DNA from: Arthrobacter castelli DSM 16402
Lineage (GTDB): Bacteria; Actinomycetota; Actinomycetes; Actinomycetales; Micrococcaceae
DNA: 64,000 bases
Assembly (NCBI RefSeq): GCF_000430705.1
Contig: NZ_AUMN01000006.1
Location: 1 to 64,000 of the forward strand
Direction: 5' to 3'
The position numbers were made by a program, and so were the translations under genes. This document shows, one piece after another, positions 33,626 to 44,603 of the stretch (within the stretch, counting starts at the first letter, position 1; the number at the start of each line of letters is the position of its first letter). A model generated the notes under the pieces. It made no database searches and was not told where the DNA came from. It saw only the letters and a program-made list of their open reading frames with translations.

Positions 33626-34522
33626 TCACTTAAACACAATGGTGCGGTGCCCATCCAGCAGCACCCGGTGTTCGGCGTGCCACTGCACCGCCTGGGCCAG
33701 CGTCCGGCCCTCGACATCCCGGCCGGTGGCAGCCAACTGCTCGGCGGTCTTGGTGTGCTCCACCCGGACGACATCTTGCTCGATGATGGGGCCTTCGTCG
33801 AGGTCGCCAGTGACATAGTGCGCCGTGGCACCGATCAATTTCACGCCGCGGGCGTGGGCCTGGGCATAGGGGCGGGCTCCCTTAAAAGAAGGGAGGAAGG
33901 AGTGGTGGATGTTGATCGCCCGCCCGGCCAGATCCCGGCATAGTTCATCGCTGAGGATCTGCATGTAGCGGGCCAGCACCACGAGGCCGACGTCGTAATC
34001 GGCGATCAGCGTACGCAACTGCGCTTCTGCCTCGGCTGTGTTCCCGGCAGTGCGTGGGATGTGGTGGAAGGTGACGCCGTAGAATTCCGCCAGCGGCCGG
34101 AGCTCCGGGTGGTTCGAAACGATCGCGGGGATTTCGATGGGCAGCGTTCCCGAGCGCTGGGCGAAGAGCAGGTTATTGAGGCAGTGCCCGTCTTTCGATG
34201 CCATGATCAGCGTGCGGACCGGCTGGTCGTGCGGGTGCACCGCCCATTCCATGTTGAACGATCCTGCCACCGGCTCAAGGTGGGATTCGAGCGCCGGCTG
34301 TGTCGCCGTCGTCGTCAAGGCCACCCGCATAAAGAACGTTCCGCTTTCATCGCTGCCATACTGCTGGGACTCGGTGATGTTGCAGCCGGCGGAGACCAGA
34401 GCTCCGGCCACGGAATGCACAATTCCGGGCTGGTCAGGGCAGGAGAGTGTCAGCGTGTAGCGGGCCGTGGTTGCGGCGTCGAAGACGTTGTCTGTATCCA
34501 CGCATCCAACGCTACCGTCCAC
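33626..34522 (-). CDS. purU: Formyltetrahydrofolate deformylase
   Basis: A 298-aa enzyme hydrolysing 10-formyl-THF to formate and THF, so freeing folate when one-carbon units pile up. An N-terminal ACT domain (residues 20-95, LTLSCPDQPGIVHSVAGALV) is followed by a formyltransferase domain with NIHHSFLPSFKGARPY and GATAHYVTGDLDEGPII (catalytic His and Asp). It diverges from the riboswitch-glyA-folD unit and matches the purU found in Arthrobacter dmg/sox clusters. A GTG near residue 8 is an alternative start. Confidence 0.93.
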   Translation of the reverse strand: MDGSVGCVDTDNVFDAATTARYTLTLSCPDQPGIVHSVAGALVSAGCNITESQQYGSDESGTFFMRVALTTTATQPALESHLEPVAGSFNMEWAVHPHDQPVRTLIMASKDGHCLNNLLFAQRSGTLPIEIPAIVSNHPELRPLAEFYGVTFHHIPRTAGNTAEAEAQLRTLIADYDVGLVVLARYMQILSDELCRDLAGRAINIHHSFLPSFKGARPYAQAHARGVKLIGATAHYVTGDLDEGPIIEQDVVRVEHTKTAEQLAATGRDVEGRTLAQAVQWHAEHRVLLDGHRTIVFK

Positions 34523-34723: not shown

Positions 34724-36007
34724 GTGAGCAAAACCGCCCAGTCCGTAGCAAACCTTCCGCTGTCCGACGTCGATCCGGAGATTTCCGCCGTCCTGGACCA
34801 GGAGCTGGACCGCCAACGTGGCACCTTGGAAATGATCGCCTCCGAGAACTTTGCGCCGCGGTCGGTGCTTGAAGCCCAGGGGTCGGTGCTGACCAACAAG
34901 TATGCCGAGGGGTATCCGGGGCGGCGCTATTACGGCGGTTGCGAATACGTCGACGTCGCCGAGAACCTGGCCCGCGACCGGGCCAAGGCACTGTTCGGGG
35001 CCGAACATGCCAACGTCCAGCCCCATGCGGGGGCGCAGGCGAACGCCGCTGCCTTGGCCGCGATGATCAAGCCGGACGATAAGATTATGGGCCTGGAGCT
35101 CGCCCACGGCGGCCACCTGACCCACGGCATGAAGCTGAATTTCTCCGGCAAGCTGTACAACGTTGCCGCCTATGGGGTGGATCCGGACTCGCTCCGCCTG
35201 GACATGGACAAGGTGCGTGAACAAGCCAAGGCCGAACGTCCCGATGTCATCATCGCCGGGTGGTCCGCCTACCCGCGACAGCTCGATTTCGGCGCCTTCG
35301 CCGAAATCGCCGACGAAGTCGGGGCCTACATGTGGACCGATATGGCTCACTTCGCAGGACTGGTGGCCGCCGGCCTGCATCCCAATCCGGTGCCGCATTC
35401 CGACGTCGTCACTTCCACGGTGCACAAGACACTGGCCGGTCCGCGCTCCGGTGTGATCTTGTCCCGCCAGGAGCTGGGCAAGAAGATGGACTCCGGGGTG
35501 TTCCCGGGACAGCAGGGCGGGCCGTTAATGCATGCCATCGCCGCCAAGGCCGTGGCGTTCAAAATCGCAGCTTCCGAAGAGTTCGCCGAACGCCAGCAAC
35601 GCACCGTCGACGGTGCGCGCATCCTCGCCGACCGGCTGATGAGCCGGGACGTGGCCGAACACGGGGTGAGCGTGCTGACCGGCGGCACCGATGTGCATCT
35701 GGTGCTGGTGGACCTGCGCAACTCGGCTATGGACGGCAAAGAGGCCGAGGATCTGCTGCACGCAGCCGGCATCACGGTCAATCGAAATGCGGTTCCGTTT
35801 GATCCGCGGCCTCCGATGGTGACCTCCGGTCTGCGGATCGGAACACCGGCACTGGCCACCCGCGGTTTCGGTGAGGCAGAATTTGGCGAGGTGGCGGACA
35901 TCATCGCTACGGCCCTCAAGCCCGGTGCCGACGTCGACAACCTGCGCAACCGGGTGGACCGGCTGGCTAGCGACTTCCCGCTGTACCCCGGATATGAGGA
36001 GTGGTGA
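34724..36007 (+). CDS. glyA: Serine hydroxymethyltransferase
   Basis: A 427-aa PLP enzyme interconverting serine + THF and glycine + 5,10-methylene-THF. [29 protein letters not shown]-like [17 protein letters not shown], and [14 protein letters not shown] with the PLP-binding Lys are all present, and the length is normal. The GTG start follows AGGAG by about 7 bases. The ZTP riboswitch precedes it and folD follows after 4 bp. It can use the glycine and methylene-THF that dimethylglycine and sarcosine breakdown yield, making serine. Confidence 0.96.
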
Positions 36008-36011
36008 ACCG

Positions 36012-36965
36012 GTGACTGAACAAGACCAGAAGAGCGGACCGGAGGCCGGCGCCGGGACACCGGCCCCGGCTCGGACTCTGGATGGCAAGGCCACGGCGCG
36101 GCAGATCAAGTCCGAACTGGCAGAGCGGGTCCAGGTCCTCGCGGAACGAGGCATCACCCCCGGGCTGGGCACGGTGCTGGTGGGTGATGACCCGGCCAGC
36201 CATTCGTACGTTGCCGGCAAGCACCGCGACTGCGCCGAAATCGGCATCAACTCCATCCGCAAGGACCTGCCGGACGATATCAGCCAGCTGGATCTGGAAG
36301 CGGTGATCGATGAGCTGAACAGCGATCCCGCCACGACGGGCTATATCGTGCAGTTGCCGCTGCCGGCGCACATTAACGCCAACGCCATCCTGGAGCGGAT
36401 GGACCCGGCCAAGGACGCCGACGGCCTGCACCCGGTGAACCTGGGACGGCTGACGCTGAACGTGTCAGGCGCAGCGGGCACGACCGGCGCCCCGCTGCCG
36501 TGTACGCCGAACGGCATCGTGGAACTGCTGGTTCGCCACGGCATCTCCTTGAAGGGCAAGGACGTACTGGTCATTGGACGCGGGATTACTGTGGGCCGCC
36601 CGCTGGGATTGCTGCTGACCCGCAAAGAAATCAACGCCACCGTCACGCTGGCACACACCGGCACGGTGGACCTGGCCGGGCACCTGGAACGGGCCAACGT
36701 CGTAATTGCAGCTGCCGGCTTCCCCTCGATGATCAAGGCGGACCAACTGAAGGAGGGGGCTATCGTCCTCGACGTCGGCGTCACCCGCACAGCCGACCCG
36801 GACACCGGCAAGACGAAACTCGCCGGAGACGTTGAACCTGCTGCGGCCAACGTGGCTTCCTGGATGTCCCCGAATCCGGGCGGTGTGGGGCCGATGACCC
36901 GTGCCATGCTGCTGGTCAACGTCGTCGAAGCGGCCGAACGCCAGGCGGGCATCACCTCCAACTGA
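36012..36965 (+). CDS. folD: Methylene-THF dehydrogenase / methenyl-THF cyclohydrolase
   Basis: A 317-aa bifunctional enzyme that converts 5,10-methylene-THF to 10-formyl-THF with NADP+. [20 protein letters not shown] carries the catalytic Tyr-x3-Lys, [13 protein letters not shown] the folate site, and [17 protein letters not shown] the cofactor site. About 28 extra residues ([13 protein letters not shown]..) precede the domain. GTG 36012 is 4 bp after glyA with AGGAG 10 bases upstream. One aptamer therefore probably controls both genes. Confidence 0.95.
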
Positions 36966-37036: not shown

Positions 37037-37071
37037 TTCAGCCCGTTATTCGCGCCGAATAACGGGCTGAA
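37037..37071. terminator. Perfect 16-bp hairpin after folD
   Basis: TTCAGCCCGTTATTCG (37037-37052) and its exact reverse complement (37056-37071) flank a three-base spacer CGC. It sits 72 bp after folD and would end the glyA-folD transcript, though without a T-run. A protein-binding palindrome is the alternative. Confidence 0.6.
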
Positions 37072-37160
37072 GTCACGTGCGCCCATGTGTGGTGTAGATC
37101 TCACGGCGCGCCTCTTGTCTACAATAATGCGCGTATCTTACACTCAAAGCACAGGCGATG

Positions 37161-37193
37161 TTCCGTATTACGCAACAGGGCTCATAATACGAA
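37161..37193. promoter_or_regulatory. Candidate IclR operator before the demethylase gene
   Basis: TTCCGTATTA (37161-37170) and ATAATACGAA (37184-37193) form an inverted repeat, and TTCCGTATTACG alone is partly palindromic, like many IclR sites. A third CGTAT lies at 37133. TACAAT (37205-37210) just downstream is a possible -10 box. The IclR regulator at 41225-42046 is the natural candidate. Confidence 0.5.
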
Positions 37194-37350: not shown

Positions 37351-38655
37351 ATGAATAAGAACGTCCCCTCCGTCGACCAATCCAACCGCACTGTGCCGAT
37401 CAATCTTCGACAGTCCGGACCGACCCCCGTTGAAATGCTGATAGATACGCGTGTCCGAAAATCGCCTTACTGGGAACTGTCCCATCAGGAAGGTTGCTGG
37501 AAGGCGTCGATTTACAACCGCATGTACCACCCGCGGGGCTACGTGAAGCCTGAAGACGGCGGGATGATGGTCGAGTATGACGCGTTGGTCAACCACGTCA
37601 CGCTCTGGAACGTCGCCGTGGAGCGGCAGATCCAGGTGAAAGGCCCCGATGCCGAGGCGTTCGTGAACTTCGTGATCACCCGCGACGCCGCCAAGATCCC
37701 GCCCATGCGGGCCCGGTATGTGATCCTCTGCAATGAAGACGGCGGCATCCTTAACGATCCGGTGCTGCTTCGCATCGCCGAGGACGAATTCTGGTTCAGC
37801 CTGTCCGACTCGGACCTGATGCTGTGGTTGCAGGGCGTCAACGTCGGCCACCGGTTCGATGTCGAGATCAAGGAGATCGACGTCGCCCCGGTGCAGATCC
37901 AGGGCCCCAAGTCCGAGGACCTGCTGGTCGATCTGGTGGGCCCGGCGGCGGCCGAGATTCCGTCGTACGGCTTGATGGCCTCGGCCGTGGGTGGCTGCGA
38001 GGTGATCATTTCCCAGACCGGCTTCACCGGCGAGAAGGGCTATGAAATCTACCTGCGCGATGCCACGCTCTACGCCGAGCAGATGTGGAACGCGGTGGTC
38101 GAAGCAGGCAAGAAGCACAACCTGATGGTTGTCGCTCCGGCACACCATCGCCGGATTGCCGCCGGCATCCTGTCCTGGGGCCAGGACATGGATGCCGAAA
38201 CCCTGCCGTTCCAAGTGAATCTGGGGTACCAGGTGCCACGGAAGAAAACGGCAGACTACATTGGCAAGCAGGCACTGGAAGCGGCCCGAGACGCGATCAA
38301 CGCCGACAAACCGCCGTACACTCACACGCTGGTGGGCATGAAGATGGACGGGCGGCCGATCGATGATTATGCCCCTGACTTCTGGCTCATTGCTCCGGAC
38401 GCTGAGTCCGAGCCGTTCGGCTACGTGACGTCACCGTGGTACTCGCCGGAGCTGGGCGTCAACATCGCCATGGGGTTCGTGCCGGTGCACCGGGCGGAGC
38501 TGAGTACCGAACTGTGGGTGCATCTGCCGGACAAGTACTCGGACTTCGTCGGCACGCCGGTGCGTGCCGAAGTTGTGGAGATGCCCTTTCGACCGTCAGT
38601 GAACCCGAATCAGCGTGAGCGGCTGAAAGGCTACGGGCTGGACGCGGCGGTCTGA
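37351..38655 (+). CDS. GcvT-family THF-dependent demethylase, DmdA-like
   Basis: A 434-aa member of the aminomethyltransferase/DmdA superfamily that should move a methyl or methylene group from its substrate to THF. The GcvT core is clear: TLWNVAVERQIQVKGPDAEA, GGILNDPVLLRIAEDEFWFS, APVQIQGPKSEDLL, SQTGFTGEKGYEIYL and the C-terminal GYVTSPWYSPELGVNIAMGF. The VERQ, NDPVLL and FWFSLSDSD stretches look more like DMSP demethylase DmdA than glycine-cleavage T protein. No gcvH or gcvP is nearby. ATG 37351 is chosen for AGGGAG at 6 bases; ATG 37348 is the alternative. The neighbours folD, fhs and fchA fit a demethylation role. The substrate cannot be read: DMSP, a betaine or a methoxy compound are possible. 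Confidence 0.8.
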   Translation: MNKNVPSVDQSNRTVPINLRQSGPTPVEMLIDTRVRKSPYWELSHQEGCWKASIYNRMYHPRGYVKPEDGGMMVEYDALVNHVTLWNVAVERQIQVKGPDAEAFVNFVITRDAAKIPPMRARYVILCNEDGGILNDPVLLRIAEDEFWFSLSDSDLMLWLQGVNVGHRFDVEIKEIDVAPVQIQGPKSEDLLVDLVGPAAAEIPSYGLMASAVGGCEVIISQTGFTGEKGYEIYLRDATLYAEQMWNAVVEAGKKHNLMVVAPAHHRRIAAGILSWGQDMDAETLPFQVNLGYQVPRKKTADYIGKQALEAARDAINADKPPYTHTLVGMKMDGRPIDDYAPDFWLIAPDAESEPFGYVTSPWYSPELGVNIAMGFVPVHRAELSTELWVHLPDKYSDFVGTPVRAEVVEMPFRPSVNPNQRERLKGYGLDAAV

Positions 38656-38689
38656 CGGCGGGCCGAATACGCCCCTGACAGCGGACTGA

Positions 38690-38722
38690 ACGTGCCGGCG
38701 CTCCCCGCGGGCGCCGGCACGT
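38690..38722 (+). terminator. Hairpin between the demethylase gene and fhs
   Basis: A 12-bp perfect stem, ACGTGCCGGCGC (38690-38701) / GCGCCGGCACGT (38711-38722), with a nine-base loop. No T-run follows, so it may only attenuate read-through into fhs or protect the upstream mRNA. Confidence 0.55.
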
Positions 38723-38872
38723 CACGCTCTCCAGATGGCGCCGACTTCTCCGCGCCCTGCAGCATCCTGCACTCTTGAAAAGCACCACCGCCAGGTCCAG
38801 ACTGAAAGTGCGCATCCAATGGTGAACGCGCAGTTTGCAGTGCCCTTGGCGGCTTATGACCAGAAAGGCTCT

Positions 38873-40573
38873 ATGACGACCATGCTGAGCAACCTCGAAA
38901 TTTCCCGGGGCGCAAGCCTCCGCCCGCTGCAGGACCTCGCAGCCGACATGGGCATCGCCGAACATCTGATTGAACCGTATGGCCGCACCACGGCGAAAAT
39001 CTCGCTTGAAACCATCGACGAACTGCAGGACAAACCCAGGGCCAAGTACGTCGTGGTCTCCTCGACCACTCCCACTCCGCTCGGTGCCGGCAAGACGACG
39101 ACGTCGGTGGGGCTGGGGCAGGCATTCAGCCATGTGGGCAAGCGCGGGGTCATCGCCCTGCGACAGCCGTCGATGGGCCCGACATTCGGAATCAAGGGCG
39201 GAGCGGCCGGAGGCGGGCACTCGCAAGTGGTGCCGATGGAGTCGCTCAACCTCCACCTGACCGGCGACATGCACGCGGTCACGGCCGCGCATAACCTGCT
39301 GTCGGCCATGGTGGACAACCACCTGCACAAGGGCAATGCCCTCGACCTCGATCCGCAAGCGATTACGTGGCGGCGGGTGCTCGACGTTAACGACCGGGAA
39401 CTGCGCCACATCGTCACCGGACTCGGGGGCAAGGCCGACGGCGCTCCCCGCCAGTCAGGTTTCGACATCACCGCCGCCAGCGAAGTGATGGCACTGCTGT
39501 CGCTGTCGACGTCGTTGCAGGATCTGCGCGAACGGTTGGGCCGGATTGTTGTCGGTTACGACCGCCAGGGCGACCCGGTGACGGCCGAGATGCTCAAGGC
39601 GGCCGGTGCCATGTGCGTGATCCTGAAGGAGGCAATCAAGCCGAACCTGATGCAGACGGTCGAGCAGACACCCGTGCTCATCCACTGCGGACCTTTCGGC
39701 AATATTGCCACCGGGAATTCGTCAATCATCGCCGACCAGATCGGCATCCGGGCCGGAGATTACCTGGTCACCGAGGCCGGGTTCGGAGCGGATATGGGCG
39801 CCGAACGGTTCTTCAATATCAAGTGCCGCAATTCGGGGCTGATTCCCGACGCCGCCGTCGTCGTCGCCACCGTCCGCGACCTGAAGACGCACTCGGGCAA
39901 GTACCGTGTGGTGGCAGGCAAGCCGTTGCCCGAGGAGATGCTTCAGGAGAACCCGGACGATGTCCTTGCCGGCGCGCCGAACCTGCGCAAGCAAATCGCC
40001 AACATCCGGCTCCACGGGGTGGAACCGGTGGTCGCGATCAACGCCTTCCCGTCGGACTACGACAGCGAGCACCAGGCGATTCTGGATATCGCCGCCGAGG
40101 AATCCACGCGGGCAGCGGTCTGCACCCACGTCGTCGACGGCGGCAAGGGGGCCGTGGAGTTGGCCCGCGCCGTGATGGAGGCCTGCGAAGAGCCGTCCGA
40201 CTTCCGCCAGCTGTATGACGACTCGATGCCCCTGGTCGAAAAGATCGAGACAGTGGCGCGCAACGTCTACGGCGCCGACGGGATAGACCTCTCCGCCACG
40301 GCGAAGCGCCAGCTCGAAAACTACGAGCGCAGCGGGTTCGGGCACTTGCCGGTCTGCATTGCCAAGACGCATTTGTCGATATCCTCCGACCCGGCACTCA
40401 AGGGAGCGCCAACGGGGTGGCGGTTGCCGGTGCGCGAAGTCCGCGCCTCCGTGGGGGCCGGATTCATCTACCCGATCTGTGGAGACATGAGTACGATGCC
40501 CGGTTTGTCCTCCACCCCCGCGGCCGAGCGGATGGACATCGGCGAAGACGGCGAAATTATCGGGTTGGCCTGA
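38873..40573 (+). CDS. fhs: Formate-tetrahydrofolate ligase
   Basis: A 566-aa enzyme making 10-formyl-THF from formate, THF and ATP, or ATP from 10-formyl-THF in reverse. TPTPLGAGKTTTSVGLGQ carries the P-loop, VALRQPSMGPTFG-like IALRQPSMGPTFGIKGG the formyl-phosphate region, and the C-terminal PAAERMDIGEDGEIIGL is conserved. ATG 38873, with GAAAGG just upstream, gives the usual family length; an earlier in-frame start would add 46 residues of unlike composition. fchA follows 3 bp later. Confidence 0.94.
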   Translation: MTTMLSNLEISRGASLRPLQDLAADMGIAEHLIEPYGRTTAKISLETIDELQDKPRAKYVVVSSTTPTPLGAGKTTTSVGLGQAFSHVGKRGVIALRQPSMGPTFGIKGGAAGGGHSQVVPMESLNLHLTGDMHAVTAAHNLLSAMVDNHLHKGNALDLDPQAITWRRVLDVNDRELRHIVTGLGGKADGAPRQSGFDITAASEVMALLSLSTSLQDLRERLGRIVVGYDRQGDPVTAEMLKAAGAMCVILKEAIKPNLMQTVEQTPVLIHCGPFGNIATGNSSIIADQIGIRAGDYLVTEAGFGADMGAERFFNIKCRNSGLIPDAAVVVATVRDLKTHSGKYRVVAGKPLPEEMLQENPDDVLAGAPNLRKQIANIRLHGVEPVVAINAFPSDYDSEHQAILDIAAEESTRAAVCTHVVDGGKGAVELARAVMEACEEPSDFRQLYDDSMPLVEKIETVARNVYGADGIDLSATAKRQLENYERSGFGHLPVCIAKTHLSISSDPALKGAPTGWRLPVREVRASVGAGFIYPICGDMSTMPGLSSTPAAERMDIGEDGEIIGLA

Positions 40574-40576
40574 TCC

Positions 40577-41221
40577 ATGGCGTCCGGGTGGACCGGTGGC
40601 GATTACCCGCAGCGGCCGTTCGACGACCTGCTGGCCGATGTCGCCGGAAGCGACCCCGCCCCGGCAGCCGGGTCGGTGACGGCGGCCAGCCTGTCGCTGG
40701 CGGCGGCGCTGACGGCGAAAGTCGCCCGCCGGTCCACCCGCCACATCTCCGACGCCGGCAGGTTGGCTGCCGCGGCGGATTCGTTGCGTGCCAGGGCAGT
40801 TCCTCTCATCAGCGGTGACGCAGCAGCGTACGCCGCCGTGTTGGCTGCTAAACGCAGTGGCCAGACGGGAGCCGGGCAGCGGCAGCCCGCCGGCGGGGAG
40901 GCAGCGGACGGCGAGGCCGCCGACGGGGAAGCCGCGGCCATGGCCGAAGCAATGCGGATTCCGGCCGAAATTGCCGTGACCGCTGCGGACGTGGTTGATC
41001 TCGCCGGCTACCTCGCGGCCCGAGGGAATCCGAACCTGTTGCATGACGCCATCGCCGCCGCAGATCTGGCATCCCAATGCTCTGCGGTCGCGGCGTCCCT
41101 GGCACGGGCCAATGCTTTGGACCCGGCATCCGGCCGGGACAGCGCCCGGTCAGACGCTGCTGATGCGGCCGCGTCGGCAGCGGAGCGCGCAGCCTCAGCC
41201 GCGGTCGCCATCGAACGCTGA
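40577..41221 (+). CDS. fchA: Cyclodeaminase/cyclohydrolase-family protein (FchA-like)
   Basis: A 214-aa all-helical protein of the FTCD C-terminal/FchA family, which in C1 pathways acts as methenyl-THF cyclohydrolase. FDDLLADVAGSDPAPAAGSV, the AAALTAKVARRS helix and the IPAEIAVTAADVVDLAGYLA and NLLHDAIAAADLA stretches match. An Ala/Gly/Glu-rich insert (EAADGEAADGEAAAMAEA) interrupts it near residue 115. It starts 3 bp after fhs. FolD also has this activity, so the gene gives a separate methenyl/formyl step to the catabolic branch. Confidence 0.8.
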   Translation: MASGWTGGDYPQRPFDDLLADVAGSDPAPAAGSVTAASLSLAAALTAKVARRSTRHISDAGRLAAAADSLRARAVPLISGDAAAYAAVLAAKRSGQTGAGQRQPAGGEAADGEAADGEAAAMAEAMRIPAEIAVTAADVVDLAGYLAARGNPNLLHDAIAAADLASQCSAVAASLARANALDPASGRDSARSDAADAAASAAERAASAAVAIER

Positions 41222-41224
41222 ATG

Positions 41225-42046
41225 TCAGCCGGTGTATCCCAGGTGGGCGCTGACCTGGTTGCCGGCATGGACCAGCTCGTCACAGAGCGCCGCGATTTCG
41301 TCGGACCGGAAGCGGAATGCGGGCCCCGACATGCTGATCGAACCAACCACGTCGCCCTGGTAGTCCCAAATGGGCACCGCGACGGCGTTGAGCCCGATCT
41401 CCAGCTCCTCGTAAACCGCTGAGTACCCGGTCTCGAGGACACGCTCCAGCTCCTGATCGAGGGCGGCCCGCGAGGTGATGGTTTTCGACGTCCGTGGCGG
41501 CTGGCCAGTGGCCTTGAGCACCTTGTCCCGCCCTTCAGCGTCGAGGTGCGCGAGGAAAATCTTGCCGCTCGCGGTGGCGTGCAACGGGGTCAGGTTTCCA
41601 ATCCAGTCGTGAGTGGCGACCGCAGACGGACCCATGGCCTGGTCTACGTTGACCGCGACATTGGAGCGCAGCACGGCCAGATTCGTCGTCTCGCCGAACT
41701 CATCGGCCAGTGCCTGCAGGATAGGGCGCGCCTCCTGCACCAGGGACAACCGACCGGGAATGGCGGCCGCCATGCGCAGAATGCCAAACCCGAGCTGGTA
41801 CTTGCCCCGCTCGTCGGTCTGCTGCACCATGCCGCGCCGTTCCAAGGCACTGATCAGCCGTGAGGCGGTGGACTTGTGAACCCCCATGGCCTCGGCGAGT
41901 TCGCCGACGAAGGAGCCGCCGGTCCTCGAGAGAATCTCCAGGACGGTGATGGCACGGTCCACCGACTGGACGCCAGGGCCGCTCGAGGCGCCGCCCTGTT
42001 CCGGATTGTGCTCAGTTCCTGCGGGAATGCGGGTATCAGATGCCAT
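41225..42046 (-). CDS. IclR-family regulator of the one-carbon/demethylation locus
   Basis: A 273-aa IclR regulator. The winged helix spans about residues 28-90 (SVDRAITVLEILSRTGGSFV, HKSTASRLISALERRGMVQQ), and the effector domain follows (NVAVNVDQAMGPSAVATHDW, TASGKIFLAHL, AVAVPIWDYQGDVVGSISMSG). The start at 42046 removes 19 unlikely N-terminal residues. It lies between fchA, which it faces tail to tail, and the dimethylglycine oxidase gene just upstream in the same direction, so it is probably cotranscribed with that gene. The likely site is 37161-37193. Confidence 0.85.
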   Translation of the reverse strand: MASDTRIPAGTEHNPEQGGASSGPGVQSVDRAITVLEILSRTGGSFVGELAEAMGVHKSTASRLISALERRGMVQQTDERGKYQLGFGILRMAAAIPGRLSLVQEARPILQALADEFGETTNLAVLRSNVAVNVDQAMGPSAVATHDWIGNLTPLHATASGKIFLAHLDAEGRDKVLKATGQPPRTSKTITSRAALDQELERVLETGYSAVYEELEIGLNAVAVPIWDYQGDVVGSISMSGPAFRFRSDEIAALCDELVHAGNQVSAHLGYTG

Positions 42047-42071
42047 ACCCGAATGGTACTTCGCACCGGAG

Positions 42072-44603
<2,532 letters not shown>

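Follow-up and report, generated by a model that had tools for sequence, protein, structure and literature searches.

Which methyl donor feeds the folate genes that surround a 434-residue protein of the GcvT/DmdA superfamily in Arthrobacter castelli DSM 16402, and what does that protein do? The gene lies at 37351..38655 on the plus strand of a 64,000-nucleotide stretch (the window), positions 1 to 64,000 of contig NZ_AUMN01000006.1 (here C6) of a 4.59-Mb, 49-contig draft genome that is 98.95% complete. A preliminary description, made from the letters of the window, had placed the protein closer to DmdA, the dimethylsulfoniopropionate (DMSP) demethylase, than to the glycine-cleavage T protein GcvT, and had suggested that it brings the methyl group of a second donor into tetrahydrofolate (THF). 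Judged by its sequence, the protein falls on the DmdA side of this superfamily yet is not DmdA. From its family, clade, gene content and neighbourhoods, all of which were computed, we infer a substrate and a product: the protein is probably a single-subunit glycine betaine:THF N-methyltransferase.

Both GcvT-type Pfam domains are recognised in the 434-aa protein above their gathering scores (GCV_T, PF01571, 140.7 vs 25.6 bits; GCV_T_C, PF08669, 39.3 vs 25.9 bits). Its best NCBIfam model is that of DMSP demethylase (NF009133), at 254.8 bits and below the curated cut-off of 410; three orthologs score 247.5, 266.3 and 270.1 on this model and the DmdA of P. inhibens scores 600.3. The GcvT models give 136.6 bits (TIGR00528, cut-off 235.85) and 158.5 bits (NF001567, cut-off 300), and the LigM/DesA models NF047885 and NF047633 give 31.2 and 45.6 bits (cut-offs 580 and 800), all below threshold. 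Plain identity is 29.5–31.6% to three DmdAs and 30.9–32.9% to two GcvTs and does not separate the families; the DmdA-side assignment is therefore based on model scores, tree and signature residues. The preliminary description was right to put the protein nearer to DMSP demethylase than to GcvT (254.8 vs 158.5 bits, with which the tree agrees), and the VERQ, NDPVLL and FWFSLSDSD stretches that it cited are indeed present.

Seven residues (E91, R92, Q93, N135, W148, S150 and D153) are common to the 434-aa protein and P. ubique DmdA, and are absent from the aligned rows of two GcvTs, DMGO/DMGDH-type proteins, SoxA and one LigM. W86 and R111 are also shared with DmdA and not found in GcvT-type rows, with W86 missing from some DmdA-like rows. 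D136, aligned with D96 of GcvT and D552 of DMGO, retains the catalytic Asp, a role to which the names of mutants in PDB titles also point. At the position of a Trp reported to contact DMSP, all 32 aligned orthologs carry Phe (F225); P. ubique DmdA has Trp and P. inhibens DmdA has Tyr, so this Trp is not a strict DmdA marker. By sequence, the closest solved structure is that of P. ubique DmdA (E 9.1e-45).

The maximum-likelihood tree has 59 rows; its root serves for drawing only, and its long-branch warnings include DmdA and GcvT rows. In it, 32 orthologs that are 56–90% identical to the window protein form one clade (support 100/100) spanning Actinobacteria, Halomonadaceae, haloarchaea and many metagenome-assembled genomes (MAGs). 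Beside it stands a 16-row group (97/92), in which annotated DmdA is joined by further DmdA-like proteins, one of them a paralog from the same Arthrobacter genome, and the two groups together (99/98) stand apart from the GcvT, DMGO, DMGDH-type, SoxA and LigM rows, of which LigM is the most distant group in the tree. The orthologs fall outside the clade of annotated or characterised DmdA. The tree of DmdA, LigM, GcvT and DMGO-type proteins proposed in the preliminary description thus puts the protein on a DmdA-side branch and not inside ordinary GcvT.

Gene neighbourhoods point to the steps that follow methyl transfer. Flanking open reading frames (ORFs) were compared with named reference proteins in 83 loci, consisting of the window and 82 fetched loci; two more (L124 and L138) were dropped, the gene not having been recovered by the ORF caller. 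A dimethylglycine/sarcosine-type flavoprotein is encoded near the gene in 39/83 loci, at a median gap of 708 bp, in Actinomycetota, Acidobacteriota, Gemmatimonadota, Nitrospinota, Pseudomonadota, a Spirochaetaceae MAG and haloarchaea, and the four neighbours checked all have the architecture DAO+FAO_M+GCV_T. A gene resembling methylene-THF reductase (MTHFR) is near in 27 loci, at a median gap of 98 bp (13 Brevibacterium, 2 Arthrobacter, 1 Kocuria, 1 Nesterenkonia, 6 Halomonadaceae and 4 haloarchaeal). These MTHFR-like proteins are divergent: only one of six passed Pfam at E 1e-8, all nine tested at E 0.01 (eight neighbours and the Arthrobacter genome's own gene on contig C11) match PF02219 and no other family, and a profile of them matches the solved MTHFR 7xg9, presumably the SYK-6 enzyme, at 7e-80, ahead of all others. 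At least one of the two partners is near the gene in 53 loci and both are in 13. MTHFR is divergent and upstream in Brevibacterium and Arthrobacter Bz4, the order is codirectional MTHFR-gene-fhs in Kocuria and gene-MTHFR-fhs in Halomonas and Onishia, several arrangements occur in haloarchaea, and the flavoprotein is divergent or convergent in Acidobacteria, Gemmatimonadota and Nitrospinota MAGs. Such differences between lineages speak against simple inheritance of a single operon. It is 5-methyl-THF, and not methylene-THF, that calls for an MTHFR; hence, next to an MTHFR, 5-methyl-THF makes best sense as the product, and next to the flavoprotein, dimethylglycine or sarcosine makes best sense as the following intermediate.

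Other neighbours are less telling. An IclR regulator is near the gene in 34/83 loci and Fhs in six, and an FchA-like gene outside the window was found only in locus L064. The junction with fhs and fchA, which the preliminary description had singled out as the novel part, is hence not what defines the family. A Pfam scan of twenty more neighbours brought up a mixture of families including transporters, with no recurrent one, and a suspected choline sulfatase in locus L117 had no NCBIfam match at 1e-60.

A plasmid search returned 16 haloarchaeal records at 54–64% identity, and eight plasmid stretches from these were read with flanks of 10 or 12 kb. They hold MTHFR in seven cases (all but L159), a large FAD-dependent oxidoreductase in six, a folate-synthesis gene (DHFR, folP or pabB) in six, a ‘threonine ammonia-lyase’ in five, glyA in three, fhs and folD in two each and a BCCT carrier in one, and look like portable betaine-to-pyruvate modules. 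Four haloarchaeal clusters (L145, L158, L161 and L147) share an aspartoacylase/succinylglutamate-desuccinylase-like gene and a ‘hypothetical’ protein of about 400 aa, for which the one copy tested (L158, 14652-15851) had no NCBIfam match at 1e-10; a creatininase-family gene also occurs in L145, L147 and L161.

Co-occurrence was assessed in a sample of 395 Micrococcaceae genomes, 28 of which have an ortholog at ≥70% identity (one of these, G466, as a partial match with a stop). The middle domain of dimethylglycine/sarcosine-type flavoproteins, PF16350 (FAO_M), is present in 214 of the 395, comprising 28/28 ortholog-bearing genomes and 186/367 others (Fisher p 1.9e-8, treating related genomes as independent and not corrected for relatedness). 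Matches to GbcA, the oxygenase component of a known betaine demethylation system, occur in 127 genomes (at E 1e-100 or lower, with no match reaching the curated cut-off), and 127/127 have PF16350. Among the 214 genomes, 14 have both genes, 14 the ortholog only, 113 the GbcA-like gene only and 73 neither. The ortholog goes with the dimethylglycine step as GbcA-like genes do, without simply replacing them. In the 14 ortholog genomes without a GbcA-like match, MTTB was found in 0/14 and PF02574 in 1/14.

The Arthrobacter genome itself has no match to the PF00848 Rieske alpha subunit (GbcA-type), to PF02574 (S-methyl_trans/Bhmt) or to MTTB (MtgB-type). It does have eight BCCT carriers, soxA, soxB and an L-serine ammonia-lyase above cut-off on contig C13, together with glyA- and purU-like ORFs, and on contig C2 (L013) a second dimethylglycine-type flavoprotein, followed by two ORFs that by eye resemble electron-transfer flavoprotein subunits, the first of which had no NCBIfam match at 1e-50. 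With the three known entries unmatched and the remainder of the path in place, the first step is most readily assigned, as a candidate, to the 434-aa protein.

Glycine betaine, from which dimethylglycine directly derives, is a nitrogen analogue of DMSP with a carboxylate. In the DmdA reaction, THF receives a methyl group of DMSP without redox change and becomes 5-methyl-THF (PMC5395565). By this analogy, the 434-aa protein would catalyse glycine betaine + THF -> N,N-dimethylglycine + 5-methyl-THF, a redox-neutral DmdA-type transfer without O2, cobalamin or homocysteine. Betaine would enter through the BCCT carriers, and 5-methyl-THF would be converted to methylene-THF by a catabolic MTHFR, here the C11 candidate acting in trans. 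Dimethylglycine would pass through sarcosine to glycine by way of the dimethylglycine oxidase of the window, the C2 flavoprotein and the C13 sarcosine oxidase, with the formation of more methylene-THF. Glycine and methylene-THF would then yield serine (GlyA) and pyruvate (L-serine ammonia-lyase, C13), and surplus one-carbon units would leave through FolD and Fhs/PurU as formate; Fhs would release formate and make ATP from 10-formyl-THF, a direction that we infer. The earlier idea of a second methyl donor into folate survives in its DmdA-type transfer to THF and in naming a betaine as one option, but not as an unrelated donor, given that orthologs and neighbours point to glycine betaine.

The same methyl-to-THF chemistry could act on a different quaternary ammonium compound, such as proline betaine, carnitine, gamma-butyrobetaine, choline or trigonelline. 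This is possible but rather unlikely: it would fit the coexistence of a GbcA-like oxygenase in half of the ortholog genomes, the variety of neighbouring transporters and the DmdA-like paralog paired with an old yellow enzyme (OYE)-type protein, a pairing by which the superfamily probably serves several substrates. But the link to dimethylglycine/sarcosine flavoproteins, seen in haloarchaea and in five or more bacterial phyla, and the true dimethylglycine oxidase in the window both fit glycine betaine, and would be unexpected for another substrate unless it were turned into glycine betaine first. The paralog (L012, 9375-10529, contig C2) is 37.1% identical to the window protein and, at 296 bits, stays below the DmdA cut-off; beside it lie an IclR gene and one for an OYE-type flavoenzyme of 678 aa (L012, 7314-11425), and it perhaps serves another betaine, such as proline betaine, with subsequent demethylation of N-methylproline. 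A DmdA-like protein on a Lichenihabitans plasmid (L169, 4603-9170), 34.2% identical to the window protein and likewise below the DmdA cut-off at 358.9 bits, is encoded beside MTHFR, purU and folD. Across the wider DmdA-like family, methyl groups thus appear to enter folate from several donors.

Other members of the superfamily offer further readings of the gene. A divergent demethylase of DMSP or another sulfonium compound would agree with the shared signature residues and with P. ubique DmdA as closest structure, but is improbable: the score falls far short of both the cut-off and a true DmdA, the orthologs lie outside the DmdA clade, the ORFs of 85 loci include no DmdB, DmdD or DmdC relative at ≥35% identity (for DmdC the query was a 133-aa part only; the best DmdB match is 30%), and the contact Trp is Phe throughout the orthologs, though Tyr in P. 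inhibens DmdA. Score, clade and neighbours led us to reject DMSP. It is highly unlikely that the protein acts on a methoxy compound, as a THF-dependent O-demethylase akin to LigM/DesA. The genome does have such chemistry on C11, but the LigM/DesA models give 31–46 bits here as opposed to 938–952 on true LigMs, and LigM rows are the farthest away. On scores, tree and neighbours, neither DMSP nor a methoxy compound, both of which the preliminary description had entertained, is a likely donor. The C11 genes (L009, 15226-16632; L010, 8316-13023) probably form a cluster for THF-dependent O-demethylation: two LigMs (938 and 952 bits, cut-off 580), a DesA/LigM-like gene below cut-off, an MTHFR-like gene and purU. 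The genome has no MTHFR match that passes the Pfam cut-off, which, with the missing PF02574, bears on its supply of methyl-THF for methionine.

It is similarly hard to credit that the gene encodes an ordinary GcvT, or a protein that assists the flavoproteins in methylene transfer. The fold is the same, the Asp is kept and Foldseek ranks the GcvT of B. subtilis first, but a standard gcvT (304 bits) adjoins gcvP (1309.9 bits, cut-off 859.2) on C11, the flavoproteins have a folate domain of their own, and a neighbouring MTHFR argues for a 5-methyl-THF product. As the preliminary description had noted, no gcvP is nearby: the longest ORF of the window has 834 aa and none is gcvP-sized. Model scores, tree and the separate gcvT-gcvP pair led us to reject ordinary GcvT.

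Several observations weigh against a glycine betaine methyltransferase. Nearly half of the MTHFR-linked loci (13/27) come from the single genus Brevibacterium, and 30/83 loci have no FAO, MTHFR, Fhs, GlyA, FolD or BCCT gene nearby; 13 of the 30 span more than 19 kb, and contig ends therefore cannot explain all of them. A BCCT carrier is near the gene in one of the 83 loci, plus the dropped L138, and the adjoining transporters vary (TRAP, amino-acid permease, Na/Ala symporter). In the Micrococcaceae, 73/214 FAO_M genomes have neither the ortholog nor a GbcA-like gene, a GbcA-like oxygenase coexists in 14/28 ortholog genomes, and mutual exclusion of the two, which we had considered, is not seen (Fisher p 0.31 within the 214 genomes). 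On the Haloarcula marismortui stretch (L158, 20037-21176), a Rieske oxygenase alpha-like protein lies between two large FAD oxidoreductases; it scores 132 bits on the GbcA model (cut-off 670; actinobacterial GbcA-like rows listed 376–414) and is possibly a further demethylase. The only MTHFR candidate of the Arthrobacter genome scores 23.4 bits (cut-off 24) and sits among the LigM genes on C11. Lastly, the AlphaFold model of the protein has a pLDDT of 63.4, with residues 1-76 below 50, and is too poor for a pocket to be read from it; Foldseek E-values obtained with it fail to separate DmdA from GcvT, and DmdA 3tfh has the top TM among the 50 matches listed.

In the window, the plus strand carries glyA (serine hydroxymethyltransferase, 34724..36007, family matches), folD (methylene-THF dehydrogenase/cyclohydrolase, 35949..36965, equivalog 455.5 bits vs cut-off 401), the proposed methyltransferase gene, fhs (formate-THF ligase, 38834..40573, NCBIfam equivalog 803.2 bits vs cut-off 652) and an FTCD_C-family gene (40577..41221), in this order. 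The start codon of fhs is at either 38735 or 38834, and this is the sole copy found in the genome. On the minus strand lie purU (formyl-THF deformylase, 33626..34522, 317.5 bits, cut-off 285.95) and, convergent to the plus-strand genes, the dimethylglycine oxidase with its FAD and folate domains (42072..44576, a full-length match to A. globiformis 1pj5 at 1209 bits) and an IclR-family regulator gene (41225..42103, start uncertain), which is downstream of the oxidase gene and overlaps it. The gene order given earlier, with folD before the methyltransferase gene, fhs and an FchA-like gene after it and dimethylglycine oxidase beside them, agrees with these ORFs. The FTCD_C-family protein, possibly an FchA-like methenyl-THF cyclohydrolase, is weakly assigned, as a superfamily call: it passes the Pfam FTCD_C threshold with 52.5 bits and gives 23.2 bits on NF045657 (cut-off 275), so of the earlier FchA-like call the position stands and the match is to the superfamily only. 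This protein has an Ala/Glu/Gly-rich low-complexity insert, and the G+C content at codon position 2 is unusually high (0.64).

About 385 bp separate folD from the methyltransferase gene. A perfect 16-nt inverted repeat lies in this gap (37037..37071) and a perfect 12-nt one between the methyltransferase gene and fhs (38690..38722); neither was called a terminator, and no terminator- or promoter-like calls were made in the two gaps. A single operon from glyA to fchA is doubtful, given the gap and the two repeats. The palindrome TGTTCCGTATTACGCAACA (37159..37177, plus strand) upstream of the methyltransferase gene is a candidate regulator site, and a similar sequence stands at the same distance upstream in locus L064. 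A pattern built from the 19-nt palindrome matches exactly only at its source, as it must, and more loosely at two places elsewhere, as many as are given by 18/100 shuffles. Of 16 upstream regions, two alone, those of the window (3%) and L089 (0%), have a best palindrome that stands out from shuffling (<5%); the value for L064 is 96%. No palindrome-like site was found upstream of the dimethylglycine oxidase gene; with iclR following that gene and convergent to the plus-strand genes, the earlier idea that the regulator is shared with the oxidase is not borne out.

When 84,980 species genomes were scanned with a pattern, 340 stretches encoding a relative came up, of which the best 80 (66–90% identity) were kept. 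Among these 80, the named taxa are Micrococcaceae, Brevibacterium, Leucobacter, Nocardioides, Pseudonocardia and Halomonadaceae, and the MAGs, as named, are Spirochaetaceae, Acidobacteria, Gemmatimonadota, Nitrospinota, and Alpha- and Gammaproteobacteria; some bin names look like those of sponge metagenomes. The nearest ortholog with a named source (90%) is that of Arthrobacter sp. H14. When 396 genomes sampled across the phylum were searched at E 1e-90, the ortholog was found only in its own genome, and the other 18 matches are relatives at 43–49%. The combination of high identity and a patchy distribution points to transfer under strong constraint. Two ortholog copies, 78% and 70% identical to the window protein, occur in G415 and in L074/L107, probably the same Yaniella MAG.

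How does the proposed enzyme compare with known systems? With DmdA (P. ubique 3tfh; P. inhibens L165) it shares the GcvT fold, signature residues, tree branch and a predicted redox-neutral methyl transfer to THF, but it has 434 as opposed to 367–369 aa, 29.5–31.6% identity, a model score below cut-off, and dimethylglycine flavoproteins and MTHFR as neighbours instead of DmdBCD. GbcAB performs the net step proposed here, from betaine to dimethylglycine, and shows the same dependence on dimethylglycine flavoproteins in Micrococcaceae, but is an unrelated, O2-requiring and formaldehyde-making Rieske oxygenase, whose PF00848 domain is unmatched in the Arthrobacter genome. The Arthrobacter dmg/sox clusters, reportedly described by Meskys et al. 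in 2001, likewise combine dimethylglycine oxidase with folate genes in an Arthrobacter-type genome; the difference is the step from betaine to dimethylglycine. MtgBCD and Bhmt achieve, likewise without O2, the demethylation proposed here, with MtgBCD also ending at THF (PMC12478193), but they require a corrinoid protein or homocysteine, and their MTTB and PF02574 families are unmatched here. The LigM/DesA system of Sphingobium SYK-6 pairs a THF-dependent demethylase with an MTHFR of oxidising direction, the catabolic MetF, but acts on aryl methyl ethers and belongs to a distant branch of the superfamily; the SYK-6 enzyme exemplifies an MTHFR subfamily that prefers conversion of 5-methyl-THF to methylene-THF and has coevolved with LigM (PMC13001107).

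In the literature, the bacterial betaine demethylation routes named are GbcAB, Bhmt and MtgBCD, in a main text without ‘GcvT’ or ‘DmdA’ (PMC12478193, PNAS 2025). For SAR11, Bhmt is predicted for the first methyl group and the passage concerned leaves gcvT-like proteins without a function (PMC3160333). In R. pomeroyi, an fhs null mutant has been used to study the role of Fhs in betaine use (PMC4744692). A glycine betaine:THF methyltransferase was not found in the open-licence literature searched; an earlier description in subscription papers is possible. On balance, we lean towards a further betaine route without O2, cobalamin or homocysteine, carried by a one-protein enzyme of the DmdA branch that is spread patchily across Actinobacteria, halophilic Gammaproteobacteria, several mostly uncultured phyla and haloarchaea, in which plasmids carry it alongside genes that make and use folate.

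DmdA-like matches should meanwhile not be counted as DMSP demethylation. Glycine betaine is among the most abundant osmolytes. If the proposed function is true, betaine use would be explained in genomes that show none of GbcAB, Bhmt and MtgBCD, and a family now annotated as ‘aminomethyl transferase’ or ‘glycine cleavage system protein T’ would become assignable. The first methyl group would be kept in the folate pool rather than lost as formaldehyde, and betaine catabolism could start without oxygen or vitamin B12.

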